Below are positions 2,522 through 34,012 of a DNA stretch of 64,000 nt, piece after piece. Source of the DNA: Lachnospiraceae bacterium NK4A144 (lineage in GTDB: Bacteria > Bacillota > Clostridia > Lachnospirales > Lachnospiraceae); the NCBI GenBank assembly GCA_000424365.1, contig AUJT01000005.1, forward strand, positions 62,001 to 126,000, in the 5' to 3' direction. Each line of letters opens with the position of its first letter. The first letter of the stretch is position 1. Made by a program: the position numbers and the translations under genes. The notes under the pieces were generated by a model, which saw only the letters and a list, made by a program, of their open reading frames with translations, did not search any database and was not told the origin of the DNA.

Positions 2522-5500
2522 TCACTTAGCCTTTCTGTTCTTTTTCTTAAATATGACTACTAATCCTATCAGTATGACGAGCATTCCTCCGATAATAAAT
2601 AACTGCCACAACCGACTGTTCTTTTTAAGGATCACAAATTCACCGTCACCTTTCATGGCAAATACAATGTAATTTCCATCAACCTTAGAAGGAATAAGTG
2701 ATACTTTATTGTCCTTTACCTCAGCTGCTGCGATGTTATCTCCGTACCCATCCTTAAGAAAACGAAGTACATAATCATCATCACGTGCTCCATACACTCC
2801 ATGCACCGAATACTTGTAAGCACCGGCGATACTGTATCCACGAGGTGCAGGCATATTTACCGAAGTCTCTTCCAAAACCACATCGCTATGATCATAAAAA
2901 TCCCCAGTTATCAAAAGTTTTGGATTTTCCTCTGCCGTCGCGATAGTAGTTACATAATCAACATATATCGCATGAACAGTTGTGTTCTGTTTAATATTAG
3001 TCAGGTCAATATTTTCCCAATATGCAAACCTTCCTTTTTTTCCTTCCGGAACAGGCGGATAAAGCGACTCTCTTATGCTGCCGCCATACTTTACAAAGAA
3101 GGTCTTTATGATCTTTCCTCCATCTGTAAAATCAACCCGCATCTCCCTGAATTCTTCCGGAACTCCGGTTTTATTTATCAGCTCACCATATGTTATAGGT
3201 TTTGCTTCTTTCTCTACTGTACATCCATTTATAGCGCCTGTTTCATTTAAGACAAAGACATTATCCCTGATATCACTCTCAGGGTCTGCTTCGCCTGCTA
3301 CCGCTCCGGTCTTTTCGTTGCTTCCCCCTACATTTGAGAGACATGCAGAACCTGTAAGGACTTTTACATATCCTGCTATTCCGCCAACATTTGTATTTCC
3401 CGAAACCTCACTCATGGAGTATGAATCGCGGATAACATATGCACTCTTACCGGCTATTCCACCAACAAAATTTCCTTCCTCAGAAGAAATCCTGCCGAAA
3501 TTATTTCCGGACAAAACCGCTCCCATTTCTGCACGTCCGACTATTCCACCGGCATAATCATTTCGTACCGATACTTCGCCTCTATTTGTACAGTCAAGGA
3601 TCGTAGCCTTTCTGGTCCTCTCATAATTAAGACTGATCTCACCAGCTGATACAACTTCAAAGTCTGACTGTGTATCGTAGTCATAATCCATGTATCCTAC
3701 GATTCCGCCAACGTTTATGTCCGCATCGATCCGACTGTTATTTATTGATGAATTAAGACTTCCCTTTCCGGGAGTACGATCAGGATCATCTGACACATCA
3801 TCAAAGACATCGTCTATGTCTTCTGTCTGTCTGATCCTTTCAAGTTCATCCTGAACTTCATCAAATCCGTCATTTAAGGTGCTGTTAATAGTCTGCATCT
3901 GACCTGTTATGGTATTTAACTGTCCTCTGACAGACGCATCTGATTCTTTTAGGCCATCAAGCAGCGTATCCATCTGCGTTGCCAGACTATCAGTCTTTCC
4001 CGTAATATCATCATCTGTCGTGCGGATATCTTTTTTGTAGTCATCGATGCAGCCCTTAAGATAATCATCAAGAGCACCGCTCTTATCTCTTATATCAGAA
4101 AGCTGATCTCCAAGTTCTTCTAAATCATCTGTACCTTCTGAAGCTTTTCCAAGTAATGTAGATAAGCTGTCATTTCCCGATGCGAGCATACGAAGAAGTT
4201 TATCCATATAATTGGTCATGTCTACCGTAATGCCGCGTCCTGCTGCTTCCTCCGCAGAATCAAGGAGTTTCTCAAGATCTTCAACATTGTCTTTCAACGC
4301 CTGAAGCGCATTTTTTGTATCATTATCATAGATATCAGGGTCGATCGAATCAATCGTACTTCGGATGCCATCAACCTGCGATCTGATCTCACGCTCTACC
4401 GAGTCATTCTTGCACTGATAATAGGTCTTGTAATCACTCACTGTCTGACGCAGTTCATCCGCAGTTCCTCTGATGGCATCTATATTGTTCTGCGCTTTAT
4501 CGTCTTCTTTTCCGACAGTATTGTGGAGCTTATCCGCCATATCGACGAGATCATCCAGCTGGTCTCCTGCTTTAGAAAATGAATCCTCGGAATATTTATT
4601 CACTACATACGGCTCAAACTGTCCTGCGATACCTCCGACATCTTTTCTTCCGTATACTTCACCGTTATTCACACATCCGGTAAGTATTCCTCTCTCGTAT
4701 CCAACGATACCGCCCGTTTTATAGCCGGTGTGTTTATATCCGACAACACCTCTGTTTTCACATTCCTTTATCACACCGGAGGATGCTCCTGCTATACCTC
4801 CCGTGTAATTAATCTTTAGCTTATCCGATAATTTTTCTTTAATGTCATCATCCTTAAGGTCGATCATGTCCGGATTAAGCTGCGCAAGGCTCTCATTTGT
4901 ATCGTCAAGCTCATCCACCGTATCCGAATCAAAACTTACATGGTCATCACTTCTTGCATCGTCCGTCTCCCACGCCGTCGTTTTCTCAGCATTTATATTT
5001 CCGGAATTAACAGAACTCTCAATGATACCCTCATTAAATCCAGCTATGCCTCCGCTTCTGCGTGTTCCGAGCACTATCGCATCCGAACTGCAGGAAATGA
5101 TCCTTCCTTCTTCCATATTGTGACCGGTTATGCCTCCGACACACTCTGCCCCGAGCACATATCCGGAAAAAGTCACACGATCCAGCACACCGTAGTTCCT
5201 TCCGGCTATGCCACCTATTTCCTTCATTTCGCCTTCGGGAGATAAATTTCCGGACACACAAAGATTTCTGATACACCCTGTCTTTCCAACAGAACGTATC
5301 AGACCTGACTGACTGGCATTTCCGCCGAGTTCAAATCCTTTTATTGTATGACCCTGCCCATCAAAAACTCCGGAAAAAATCGACACAGGCTTAAATTTTG
5401 TCCCACTTAGGTCGATATCATTCGTGAGGACATAATATTTTCCCTGAGTCTCTGATTCATCGGAACTCTTCTCTGAAAGAGCAATGAGGTCTTCTGCACT

Positions 5501-5659
5501 GGTAATCTCTATAGCATTACCTGACAATTCGTTTTTTTCTTCTACTGCTTTTGCCGGCTGTTCCGCTGCCTCTGCATGATTTACCGGTATTCCGGTAAAG
5601 ATCAGTGCCGCAGAAAGTATTAGAGCCGCAAAAGTTTGGTCATATTTTCTCTTTTTCAT
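2522..5659 (-). CDS. GLUG-repeat, coiled-coil surface protein with C-terminal membrane anchor
   Basis: About 1045 residues. A signal peptide (MKKRKYDQTFAALILSAALI, cleavage likely after AEA) is followed by repeats of the GLUG type (GGIAGRN, GGITGHN, GGIVGYE, GGIAGQF). A central acidic coiled-coil region of about 280 residues follows, then a second set of GLUG repeats. Next is an InlB-like segment (KTFFVKYGGSIRESL), then a beta-rich part, one membrane helix and the basic tail KKKNRKAK. Met7 of the longest frame was chosen because the first six codons overlap a strong -10 box. The protein is predicted to be membrane-anchored and exposed. Downstream is an MMPL transporter, so it may be an extracytoplasmic partner of it. 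GLUG domains have no agreed molecular function. Confidence 0.8.
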   Translation of the reverse strand: MKKRKYDQTFAALILSAALIFTGIPVNHAEAAEQPAKAVEEKNELSGNAIEITSAEDLIALSEKSSDESETQGKYYVLTNDIDLSGTKFKPVSIFSGVFDGQGHTIKGFELGGNASQSGLIRSVGKTGCIRNLCVSGNLSPEGEMKEIGGIAGRNYGVLDRVTFSGYVLGAECVGGITGHNMEEGRIISCSSDAIVLGTRRSGGIAGFNEGIIESSVNSGNINAEKTTAWETDDARSDDHVSFDSDTVDELDDTNESLAQLNPDMIDLKDDDIKEKLSDKLKINYTGGIAGASSGVIKECENRGVVGYKHTGYKTGGIVGYERGILTGCVNNGEVYGRKDVGGIAGQFEPYVVNKYSEDSFSKAGDQLDDLVDMADKLHNTVGKEDDKAQNNIDAIRGTADELRQTVSDYKTYYQCKNDSVEREIRSQVDGIRSTIDSIDPDIYDNDTKNALQALKDNVEDLEKLLDSAEEAAGRGITVDMTNYMDKLLRMLASGNDSLSTLLGKASEGTDDLEELGDQLSDIRDKSGALDDYLKGCIDDYKKDIRTTDDDITGKTDSLATQMDTLLDGLKESDASVRGQLNTITGQMQTINSTLNDGFDEVQDELERIRQTEDIDDVFDDVSDDPDRTPGKGSLNSSINNSRIDADINVGGIVGYMDYDYDTQSDFEVVSAGEISLNYERTRKATILDCTNRGEVSVRNDYAGGIVGRAEMGAVLSGNNFGRISSEEGNFVGGIAGKSAYVIRDSYSMSEVSGNTNVGGIAGYVKVLTGSACLSNVGGSNEKTGAVAGEADPESDIRDNVFVLNETGAINGCTVEKEAKPITYGELINKTGVPEEFREMRVDFTDGGKIIKTFFVKYGGSIRESLYPPVPEGKKGRFAYWENIDLTNIKQNTTVHAIYVDYVTTIATAEENPKLLITGDFYDHSDVVLEETSVNMPAPRGYSIAGAYKYSVHGVYGARDDDYVLRFLKDGYGDNIAAAEVKDNKVSLIPSKVDGNYIVFAMKGDGEFVILKKNSRLWQLFIIGGMLVILIGLVVIFKKKNRKAK

Positions 5660-5665
5660 AATCTC

Positions 5666-5693
5666 ATTATACAACATCGTGATTTTTATTCAA
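5666..5693 (-). promoter_or_regulatory. Sigma-A promoter of the GLUG-MMPL operon
   Basis: On the minus strand TTGAAT (5688-5693) and TATAAT (5666-5671) are separated by 16 bases. The predicted start of transcription falls at about 5659, at the first base of the preferred ATG. The -35 box overlaps the inverted repeat at 5690-5704. Confidence 0.7.
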
Positions 5694-5704
5694 CAGTGTG
5701 TTGA
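5690..5704. promoter_or_regulatory. Candidate TetR operator
   Basis: Inverted repeat TCAACAgtgTGTTGA with perfect 6-bp arms. It overlaps the -35 boxes of both divergent promoters, so one bound dimer could block both. Assignment to the adjacent TetR protein is inferred from position only. Confidence 0.6.
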
Positions 5705-5729
5705 TTTACCAACCGAGATGTATTATAAT
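5701..5729 (+). promoter_or_regulatory. Sigma-A promoter of the tetR-type gene
   Basis: TTGATT (5701-5706), 17-base spacer, TATAAT (5724-5729). The transcript would have an untranslated leader of about 60 bases before the ATG at 5796. Confidence 0.7.
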
Positions 5730-5795
5730 GTCATTCGGACAGGATAGCAATAGTCCTGCGGAAATTTTTTAAATAAATACTTAGGGTGATAGTTT

Positions 5796-6377
5796 ATGAG
5801 AATGTCTGAAGTAAAAATGGATCGGCGTATCCGCAAAACGAAGAGTCTTCTGTGGCACGGCCTTGCCTCACTGATGATGGAAAGAGATATTCAGGATATT
5901 TCTGTCAAGAGACTGACAGAGTATGTAGACCTGAATCGAAGCACCTTCTATATCCATTACAAGGATATAAATCAGCTGCTTGATTCCATTGAAAATGAAC
6001 TGATGGAAGAATTTCGCGAGATCATTTCTCACAACATAGATATTTCAAATCTCTACGAGTCTAATCTGCAGCTTTTGCACGACCTGTACAGAGATCTCCT
6101 GCAAAACCGCGAGATCATAAGTGCTCTGCTTGGTCCTCACGGAGATTTTCAGTTTATCAAAAAATTAAAACAGATCCTTACGGAAAGAATTGAAGAAATC
6201 GGAAAAGCTCTGAATTTTTCCGAAGAAGTTCTGACCTACTATTCCGCCTTTTGCTTTACCGGCTGTGTAGGTATCATACAGCAATGGATAGAAACGGATT
6301 TTGAACAGAGTCCGGAACACATCGCAGATATCACCAACCGCTTCATGATTCACGGAATGGACTCGATACTTCATTAA
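5796..6377 (+). CDS. TetR/AcrR-family transcriptional regulator
   Basis: 193 residues. The N-terminal helix-turn-helix is typical of TetR proteins (RIRKTKSLLWHGLASLM ... ISVKRLTEYVDLNRSTFYIHY). The C-terminal helical ligand-binding and dimer domain resembles the type common in Firmicutes. An AGGGTGA ribosome site lies 8 bases before the ATG. The gene is transcribed away from the GLUG-MMPL operon and is expected to repress that operon and itself through the inverted repeat at 5690-5704. The inducer is unknown, but an exported substrate of the MMPL pump is the usual pattern. The gene ends about 25 bases before an inserted MITE-like element. Confidence 0.9.
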   Translation: MRMSEVKMDRRIRKTKSLLWHGLASLMMERDIQDISVKRLTEYVDLNRSTFYIHYKDINQLLDSIENELMEEFREIISHNIDISNLYESNLQLLHDLYRDLLQNREIISALLGPHGDFQFIKKLKQILTERIEEIGKALNFSEEVLTYYSAFCFTGCVGIIQQWIETDFEQSPEHIADITNRFMIHGMDSILH

Positions 6378-6393
6378 ATAAACATTCAAAAAA

Positions 6394-6555
6394 GGGAACC
6401 GGTTACTGTTCACTCGCTTCCAGCTCGCTCACGTAACGGATTTTGCCAATTAAATCGCCTCCGGCGATGGGCAAAATCCAATGGCTTTTCATCTTTCTTG
6501 GTCGTAAACTCCGCAGCGTAGTGCTCCGTTTACGTGCGAACTGTTAAGGGAACCG
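6394..6555. repeat. Target-site duplication GGGAACCG flanking MITE copy 1
   Basis: The 8-bp sequence GGGAACCG occurs at 6394-6401 and again at 6548-6555, directly on either side of the element at 6402-6547. This is the footprint of a transposition event. Confidence 0.75.
6402..6547. mobile_element. MITE-like palindromic element, copy 1 (146 bp)
   Basis: No coding capacity. The left end GTTACTGTTCAC is an imperfect inverted match of the right end GCGAACTGTTAA. Inside is a strong stem (GGATTTTGCC ... GGCAAAATCC enclosing CGCC/GGCG) and a second stem (GTAAAC ... GTTTAC). Most of the sequence recurs at 33804-34004. The 8-bp direct repeats on its flanks identify it as a non-autonomous mobile element. 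No transposase gene is in the window. Confidence 0.75.
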
Positions 6556-6584
6556 CACTTTTTACAGTACGGCTCCCTTTTTTA
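6548..6584 (+). terminator. Rho-independent terminator after the TetR gene, disrupted on the other strand
   Basis: GGGAACCG (6548-6555) pairs with CGGCTCCC (6570-6577) and a T-run follows, so it works for plus-strand transcripts. The matching A-run that would serve minus-strand transcripts lies at 6388-6393, on the far side of the inserted element. Confidence 0.75.
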
Positions 6585-6603
6585 TTTTAGTCCTGTCATT
6601 ATC

Positions 6604-7290
6604 TTACTCAGCTGTTTCCGCTGTTGTTTCTTCGGAACTGCTGTCTTCTGTATCCTCTGTACTCTGTTCATCAGGTTTTCCCGGTGCCTTATTATCATCT
6701 ATTGAAATCGAAACAACTTCATTGTCATCGTTATATGTGATAACTACCATTGTTTCCTCTTCAAGGTCTTCTGCTGAACAATCCTTATATTCTGTAGAAC
6801 TTGTGAGTATCAGTTCAAGAGTTTCTCCAGACGGTGCCTCTCCGCCCTTCTGATCTTGACCGCCGCCGGGCTGTCCACCCCTGCCGCCTTTACCGCCTTC
6901 CGGTGCTTTTCCACCGGATGTCTCCCCTGACGGCGCTTCTCCGGATGGTGCCTCACCTGATGGTGCCTCACCTGACGGCGCTTCTCCATTTCCGCCGGCT
7001 CCCGGGCCGCCCTTACCACCCATATTTGCAAAAGCCTCTACTGTCAGTTTCTCACCATCTATCGATGTAATCTTCGCGTGTACTTCGGTTCCTTCAGCAT
7101 TTTCTTCCGACATAGCCGTGCTTGGCTCATCCGTAGGTGCAGGTGCGTCAGACGGCGCCTCTGCAGTCGTCTCTGCCGGTGTTTCCGCTGCTGCAAAAGA
7201 ACTTCCGCATCCTGTCACAGAAAGAGAAAGCACTGCCGCTGCAATTATCGCTGCAACTCTTTTACAAACCTTCTGATTTCTTCTTTTCAT
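6604..7290 (-). CDS. Gly/Pro/Glu-rich lipoprotein of unknown function
   Basis: 228 residues from the ATG at 7290, chosen for its GAGAGGATG ribosome site; the longer frame has none. A signal peptide ends in the lipobox LSVTGC, so the protein is probably lipid-anchored on the outer face of the membrane. An acidic Thr/Ala/Pro-rich stretch leads to a short motif (KITSIDGEKLTVEAF), a Gly-rich region with four tandem GEAPS units, and a segment ELILTSSTEYKDCS that resembles the end of a small beta domain. The tail is Ser/Thr/Glu-rich. The two beta segments around the Gly-rich insert could form one fold. No family was recognised. Confidence 0.75.
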   Translation of the reverse strand: MKRRNQKVCKRVAAIIAAAVLSLSVTGCGSSFAAAETPAETTAEAPSDAPAPTDEPSTAMSEENAEGTEVHAKITSIDGEKLTVEAFANMGGKGGPGAGGNGEAPSGEAPSGEAPSGEAPSGETSGGKAPEGGKGGRGGQPGGGQDQKGGEAPSGETLELILTSSTEYKDCSAEDLEEETMVVITYNDDNEVVSISIDDNKAPGKPDEQSTEDTEDSSSEETTAETAE

Positions 7291-7424
7291 AATCCATCCT
7301 CTCATTTCTGACAGATCATCTGTCATTAAATTTCATTTCTTAATGAGATAGATTGTAATATGATCGTTTGAAAACTTTTTGATGAGACTGTGAAAAAACA
7401 GGGGACGGGAGCTTAACCATAGCT

Positions 7425-7453
7425 TAAAAAGGCTGACCCTTAACGGATCAGCC
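7425..7453 (-). terminator. Rho-independent terminator of the alanine symporter gene
   Basis: On the minus strand GGCTGATCC pairs with GGGTCAGCC and a T-run follows (A-run 7426-7430 on the plus strand). It lies just after the stop codon at 7464. Confidence 0.8.
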
Positions 7454-7463
7454 TCCCAAAATC

Positions 7464-8900
7464 TTATGCGTTTTCTGCCTCGGTACGTCTTACAACGTCC
7501 TCAGCCTTCGTAAAAAAACTTTTTACTTCCTTTGCTGCCACACCGCTAAGTGCGATAAGGGCTACCAGATTCGGCAGTGCCATAAGTCCGTTAACGATAT
7601 CCGCGATAGTCCATACTGCGCTTACAGTCATATACGGTCCGAAAAATACACATGCAATATATATCCATCTATATGACTTCACGACTTTCTGATTATCATT
7701 TGTCAGATACTCAAGACATCTCTCAGAATAGTAGTCCCATCCAAGAATAGTCGTAAACGCAAAGAACACGAGACAGATCATCAGGATAAATGCGGAAACC
7801 TGCGCCGGGATAGGAAGTCCCTCCTGGAAAGCACGGGTAGTAACCGCAGCTCCCTCAAGTCCCTGATTCCATGAACCTGTAACAACAATGCAAAGACCTG
7901 TCATAGTACAGATGATAAGTGTATCTATTACAGTTCCGAGCATGGAAACAAGTCCCTGCTCAACAGGCTCATCAACCTTTGCCGCAGCTGCTGCGATAGG
8001 CGCCGAACCGATACCTGCTTCGTTGCTGAAGATTCCTCGTGCGATACCTTTCTGCATAGCTACCATCATTGCACCTAACGCACCGCCGGAAACCGCGCGA
8101 AGCCCGAAAGCGCCTGTTACGATCTCTGCAAGAGCTCCCGGTATCTTTGTAATGTTAAGGAGCAGGATGATCAAACCACACACTACATAAAGAATTGCCA
8201 TGAACGGTACTACGACCTGTGCAACCTTTGAAATTCTCTTAAGTCCGCCGATAAGTACCAGTGCTACACAGACTGTGAGGATCAGACCTGAAATAACCAC
8301 GCTCCATGAATACTCACGTCCGAAAAGGCTTACCGCATTTACGGTTTCAGGATCAAAGAAGCCCTTTACAGCACTTGTGATACCATTTATCTGAGTAAAG
8401 GTTCCGATACCGAAAAGACCTACCATTACGCCAAAGACTGCAAAAATCTTTGCAAGCCATGACCACTGTTTTCCCATTCCCTTTTCAATATAGTAAAAAG
8501 GACCACCGATTATATGTCCATCTTCTGCAACCGAACGGAATTTGATCGCCAGCATACACTCGGTAAACTTGGTAGCAGTTCCTACGAGTGCAGCGATCCA
8601 CATCCAGAACATGGCACCCGGTCCACCTGCAACGATGGCTGTGGCAACACCTACGATATTACCGGTTCCGATAGTCGCGGACAGTGCTGTACAAAGAGCT
8701 GCAAAGCTGGAAACCTCTCCTGTTTCTCCGCTCTGATCATTCTTAAACATCAATTTAAATCCCATCAGAAGCTTTGAAAATTGGATTCCTCTCAAGCGAA
8801 CAGTGAGCATGAGGCCTGTAAACAGTATCAGGACGATAAGCGGCACACCCCACACAAAATCATCAATTGCGCCAAGGACATTATTAATCGTATCCAGCAT
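7464..8900 (-). CDS. Sodium:alanine (amino acid) symporter, AgcS family
   Basis: 478 residues from the ATG at 8900, which has an AAGGAGAG ribosome site 8 bases upstream; the longer frame does not. About 11 membrane helices. Family segments are visible: SFAALCTALSATIGTGNIVGVATAI, GPGAMFWMWIAALVGTATKFTE, ARGIFSNEAGIGSAPIAAAAA and the cytoplasmic tail after the last helix. AgcS proteins import alanine or glycine with Na+. It is a single-gene transcript: its own promoter lies at 8984-9012 and its own terminator at 7425-7453. Confidence 0.95.
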   Translation of the reverse strand: MLDTINNVLGAIDDFVWGVPLIVLILFTGLMLTVRLRGIQFSKLLMGFKLMFKNDQSGETGEVSSFAALCTALSATIGTGNIVGVATAIVAGGPGAMFWMWIAALVGTATKFTECMLAIKFRSVAEDGHIIGGPFYYIEKGMGKQWSWLAKIFAVFGVMVGLFGIGTFTQINGITSAVKGFFDPETVNAVSLFGREYSWSVVISGLILTVCVALVLIGGLKRISKVAQVVVPFMAILYVVCGLIILLLNITKIPGALAEIVTGAFGLRAVSGGALGAMMVAMQKGIARGIFSNEAGIGSAPIAAAAAKVDEPVEQGLVSMLGTVIDTLIICTMTGLCIVVTGSWNQGLEGAAVTTRAFQEGLPIPAQVSAFILMICLVFFAFTTILGWDYYSERCLEYLTNDNQKVVKSYRWIYIACVFFGPYMTVSAVWTIADIVNGLMALPNLVALIALSGVAAKEVKSFFTKAEDVVRRTEAENA

Positions 8901-33795: not shown

Positions 33796-34012
33796 TTTAT
33801 TCTGTTACTGTTCACTCGCTTACAGCTCGCTCACGTAACGGATTTTGCCAATTAAATCGCCTTCGGCGATGGACAAAATCCAGTGGCTATTCATCGTTAT
33901 TGATCGTAAACAGCTCACGCATACACTCTCACTAAGCTCACATGCGTTCGCTAAGTGTTCGTAGCATCCGCAGCGTAGTGCTCCGTTTACGTGTGAACTG
34001 TTACTTTATTCT
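33796..34012. repeat. Target-site duplication TTTATTCT flanking MITE copy 2
   Basis: TTTATTCT at 33796-33803 and again at 34005-34012, directly around the element. The right copy includes the stop codon of glmS. Confidence 0.7.
33804..34004. mobile_element. MITE-like palindromic element, copy 2 (201 bp)
   Basis: Ends GTTACTGTTCAC and GTGAACTGTTAC are inverted repeats with 10 of 12 positions matching. The first ~105 and last ~35 bases are nearly the same as the element at 6402-6547; about 55 extra bases sit between the two conserved parts. It has the same internal stem (GGATTTTGCC ...). No gene inside; flanked by 8-bp direct repeats. Confidence 0.75.

Follow-up and report, generated by a model that had tools for sequence, protein, structure and literature searches.

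In the convergent gene pair described here, a young, non-coding MITE copy has entered one stem arm of a probable bidirectional intrinsic terminator shared by the two genes, with an 8-bp target duplication, and has split it, leaving the terminator intact for tetR and, as predicted from the sequence, broken for the facing lipoprotein gene. The locus lies in a stretch of 64,000 nucleotides (the window, G000:C5:62001-126000) of the 4.09-Mb draft genome of a rumen-type bacterium.

Results

Layout of the locus and its insert-free relatives

The tetR gene on the plus strand and a predicted lipoprotein gene on the minus strand converge, and 10 bases separate the tetR stop codon from an A-run, with which the site begins. 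The features in and around it are as follows.

2522-5677, minus strand: gene for a predicted secreted repeat protein of 1051 aa, the next minus-strand gene past tetR
5796-6377, plus strand: tetR, a TetR-type regulator with a PF14278 C-terminal domain
6388-6393, minus strand: U-run of the former terminator (the plus-strand A-run), now stranded beside tetR
6394-6401, strand not applicable: left copy of the target duplication GGGAACCG, 8 bp
6402-6547, plus strand: MITE, 146 bp, with ends GTTACTGTTCAC and (reverse complement) TTAACAGTTCGC
6548-6555, strand not applicable: right copy of GGGAACCG, now a stem arm of the surviving hairpin
6570-6577: CGGCTCCC stem arm, after a spacer downstream of the right GGGAACCG
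6578-6583: T-run, the plus-strand U-run for tetR
6548-6583, plus strand: predicted surviving tetR terminator (stem 6548-6577, U-run from 6578; score 15.2, dG -11.3)
6548-6577, minus strand: hairpin without U-run, GGGAGCCGTACT gtaaaa AGTGCGGTTCCC (dG -21.7)
6604-7326, minus strand: predicted lipoprotein gene, whose transcript would end at the minus-strand terminator

The initial annotation of this site was accurate as to its parts: the A-run, both GGGAACCG copies, CGGCTCCC and the T-run were all found. The lipoprotein gene gave no Pfam match, and an Rfam search of 5500-7500 gave no match.

Three relatives share this gene order but lack the insert (MMPL-type and 1051-aa genes on the minus strand, tetR on the plus strand, then lipoprotein, Na:alanine symporter and HisC genes on the minus strand). 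These are MC2017 (L073), identical at the site to G030, L074, identical there to G009, and KH1P17 (L075), in which the lipoprotein stretch showed up through DNA homology but was not the top-ranked ORF. All three carry a hairpin at the same spot with compensating stem changes, the stems being GGCTGCCGCACT..AGTACGGCAGCC, GGGGATGCCGCACTA..TAGTACGGCATCCCC and GCCGATGTACA..TGTACATCGGC. Read from the plus strand, the RNA stem is interrupted by a C.A mismatch, in the window as in its two closest relatives, and in the window also by an A.C mismatch; in minus-strand RNA these are G-U pairs, so that only RNA from the lipoprotein side folds into a perfect hairpin. The GGGAACCG/CGGCTCCC arms named in the initial annotation are real, but the minus-strand stem, at 12 bp with a loop of 6 bases, is longer than the 8 bases it gave. 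In the tetR-lipoprotein gap of G030/MC2017 (L032/L073) the U-run beside the conserved hairpin is poor in either direction, and the hairpin there may act less as a terminator than in stabilising RNA.

Predicted terminator strength before and after insertion

Terminators were evaluated with a d'Aubenton-Carafa type score (hairpin energy per length plus U-tract). Removing the element and one GGGAACCG copy does restore a two-way terminator, as had been proposed: the reconstructed empty site scores 34.2 on the minus strand and 15.2 on the plus strand, while a score of 0 or above was reached by none of 150 dinucleotide shuffles of it and by none of 24 coding stretches, each 250 bases long. The corresponding minus and plus values are 19.8 and 12.7 for KH1P17, 15.3 and -29.8 for G009, and -12.8 and -21.0 for G030, which has no insertion; minus is thus the stronger direction in all four insert-free sites.

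With the insert in place the site scores -14.0 on the minus strand and an unchanged 15.2 on the plus strand. On the plus strand a stable hairpin is followed directly by a U-run, in the manner of an intrinsic terminator, which agrees with the earlier proposal that the side after tetR still works. On the minus strand the hairpin is intact, but the tail that follows it is TTAACAG in place of a U-run, and the score drops because the U-run now lies 154 bases away; the displacement had been foreseen correctly, at an approximate 150 bases. A scan of the minus strand from 6620 to 5400 gave no other terminator, with nothing above -5; the stranded U-run therefore fails to rescue minus-strand termination, as does the element. 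Rescue by a new hairpin ahead of the displaced U-run was rejected (best score -26), and terminator scoring of the MITE itself found none within it. The minimum-energy fold of the plus strand allows pairing across the element between CGGCTCCC and the first GGGAACCG copy; the local hairpin is expected to outcompete this pairing, since it forms first.

Predicted consequences for transcription

Under the split-terminator reading, termination of tetR mRNA would be unchanged, and the lipoprotein transcript would no longer end efficiently at 6548. Some lipoprotein transcripts would traverse the MITE and run antisense to tetR until stopped by Rho or RNA processing, so that antisense read-through into tetR, already raised in the initial annotation, is possible. 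Rho, whose gene the genome encodes, may end such untranslated RNA quickly and limit the read-through, and the stable minus-strand hairpin, with TT after it, may yet make the polymerase pause or lie at the 3' end of a processed RNA.

These same features can be taken further, to an insertion that is transcriptionally silent, the minus-strand hairpin, Rho and 3'-end trimming together still setting the end of the lipoprotein mRNA and little or no antisense RNA reaching tetR. The presence of Rho and the intact hairpin (dG -21.7) are consistent with this, as is G030, which keeps its hairpin despite the poor U-runs on both strands and so suggests that the arrangement is tolerated. However, the ancestral site and two of the three relatives score positive on the minus strand, and a U-run immediately past the stem is generally held to be required for intrinsic termination; we consider a silent insertion rather unlikely, and favor the split terminator. 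The G030 score of -12.8 without any insertion indicates that strong intrinsic termination at this site is not essential, and that read-through there would not be specific to the insertion in the window; the minus-strand signal of G030 being similarly poor, loss of the minus-strand stop is probably tolerated. It is improbable that the lipoprotein transcript crosses tetR in antisense and continues into the gene at 2522-5677, forming a non-contiguous transcription unit in which tetR is lowered and that gene is co-expressed.

Terminators and the MITE family

Insertions of the family were collected from the same genome and from G009, G030, G032 and G036 by a search that demanded an 8-bp duplication with at most 1 mismatch, giving 90 candidates, among which one or two odd-length pairs (e.g., 66 and 287 bp) are probably due to chance. 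Several members of the family are found within or next to terminators, as they would be if it targeted terminators or palindromes and the split were the outcome of such a preference. However, overlap with a terminator-like site is seen for 9 insertions out of 71, where 8.0 (sd 2.4) are expected within their own intergenic regions, which is no excess; and the target duplications of the family are 73% A+T without a fixed motif, whereas that in the window is GC-rich. Such targeting is accordingly very improbable.

What distinguishes the split terminator in the window is where the duplication fell. Among 88 sites, 15 predicted terminators span a target duplication, and 11 of these are kept after insertion; at two more loci, L149 and L158, another terminator on the same strand still scores above 0. 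Losses are confined to the minus-strand terminator of the window, which scored 34.2, and one at L139 that was already weak (4.4), making the former the sole strong terminator lost among the 15. The typical insertion position is the stem edge or the U-run, both of which the 8-bp duplication tends to reproduce, and most spanned terminators survive for that reason; in the window the duplicated 8 bases are the stem arm only, with the result that one U-run was cut off. This suggests why MITE insertions usually spare terminators. The insertions at L149 (773-916) and L158 (99-244) are into terminator hairpins, and the other terminator was possibly re-formed by the target duplication. At L139 (700-844) the insertion is into the loop of GATGTCAGGGTCAAAAG..CTTTTGACCC, a long palindrome whose hairpin it opens.

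Identity and age of the element

That the insert is a MITE, as initially proposed, is borne out by about 90 distinct insertions that the family has made in this genome and in others of the genus, with 8-bp duplications at almost every one, and by the insert-free orthologous sites. Of the first 30 loci, whose flanks were left unfiltered, nearly all have an 8-bp flanking duplication. The two GGGAACCG copies flanking the insert are exactly identical. The direct repeat at the site reads as 10 bases, AAGGGAACCG, because the last base of the element is A here and C in the family; comparison with other copies fixes the boundaries at a 146-bp element plus an 8-bp duplication. The terminal inverted repeats are imperfect (GTTACTGTTCAC / GTAACAGTTCAC, the latter being the family consensus right end), and neither a gene-like ORF nor a promoter-like match was found within the 146 bp.

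The element has 40 scored matches in its own genome at 94-100% identity, and its right end has 93 matches with at most 2 mismatches, versus 7 for a reversed control pattern. Usual lengths are 144-147 bp, with an additional 201-bp form, and the family is limited to the genus of its host among 61 genomes searched. A second member in the window, at 33804-34004, is of the 201-bp form and has the target duplication TTTATTCT. Of 27 oriented 146-bp copies in the genome, 10 are identical to their consensus, to which the window copy shows two changes, T to C at position 136 and C to A at position 146; its insertion is therefore probably recent.

Seven transposase families were searched in the draft assembly for an autonomous partner with the ends of the MITE, and none was found: IS66, ISL3 and DDE_Tnp_1 transposases are encoded, without such ends, and IS256, IS1595, IS6 and IS1 transposases were not detected. 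IS66 elements generate an 8-bp duplication and have ends beginning GTAA. The MITE likewise has an 8-bp duplication, its right end being GTAAC and its left end GTTAC; the IS66 transposases of this genome are not flanked by its ends. No transposase lies near a lone unpaired MITE end at C8:4135. An ISL3-family element with the end GGCTCTTCAGGGGTAATGGTGGG, present in several copies, was seen at L206-L210 (the starts of contigs C13, C2, C32 and C51; and C36), and contigs break inside it. The lack of a transposase with matching ends among the families searched is what would be expected of two GGGAACCG copies made by local duplication with no mobile element, a reading effectively ruled out by dozens of dispersed near-identical copies with distinct 8-bp duplications and by the orthologous sites without the element.

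Comparison with known systems

The kind of event is ordinary and is here cleanly documented, offering a clean natural experiment in which one recent MITE insertion into a known ancestral layout is predicted to turn a two-way terminator into a one-way one. Nothing relevant on Lachnospiraceae/Butyrivibrio MITEs, or on MITEs together with intrinsic terminators, was found in the collection of papers searched. The element resembles other bacterial MITEs (non-autonomous IS derivatives) in being 146 bp long and non-coding, in its imperfect terminal inverted repeats and 8-bp target duplications, and in its high number of nearly alike copies; it differs in that a partner with matching ends was not found among the transposase families searched. 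With the bidirectional intrinsic terminators of convergent genes, the reconstructed site and that of KH1P17 share an A-run, a GC-rich hairpin and a T-run that are read both ways, whereas the site in the window is split, hairpin and U-run being left together for the plus strand alone. A parallel in consequence is S. aureus sbrB/lexA, where a natural sequence variant likewise reduces the strength of a terminator that faces a regulator gene encoded on the other strand, leading to antisense read-through (PMC8745188). There the variant is a single-base mispair in the sbrB stem and the lexA antisense RNA was proven experimentally (PMC8745188), whereas here a MITE parts the stem from its U-run and the read-through is predicted.
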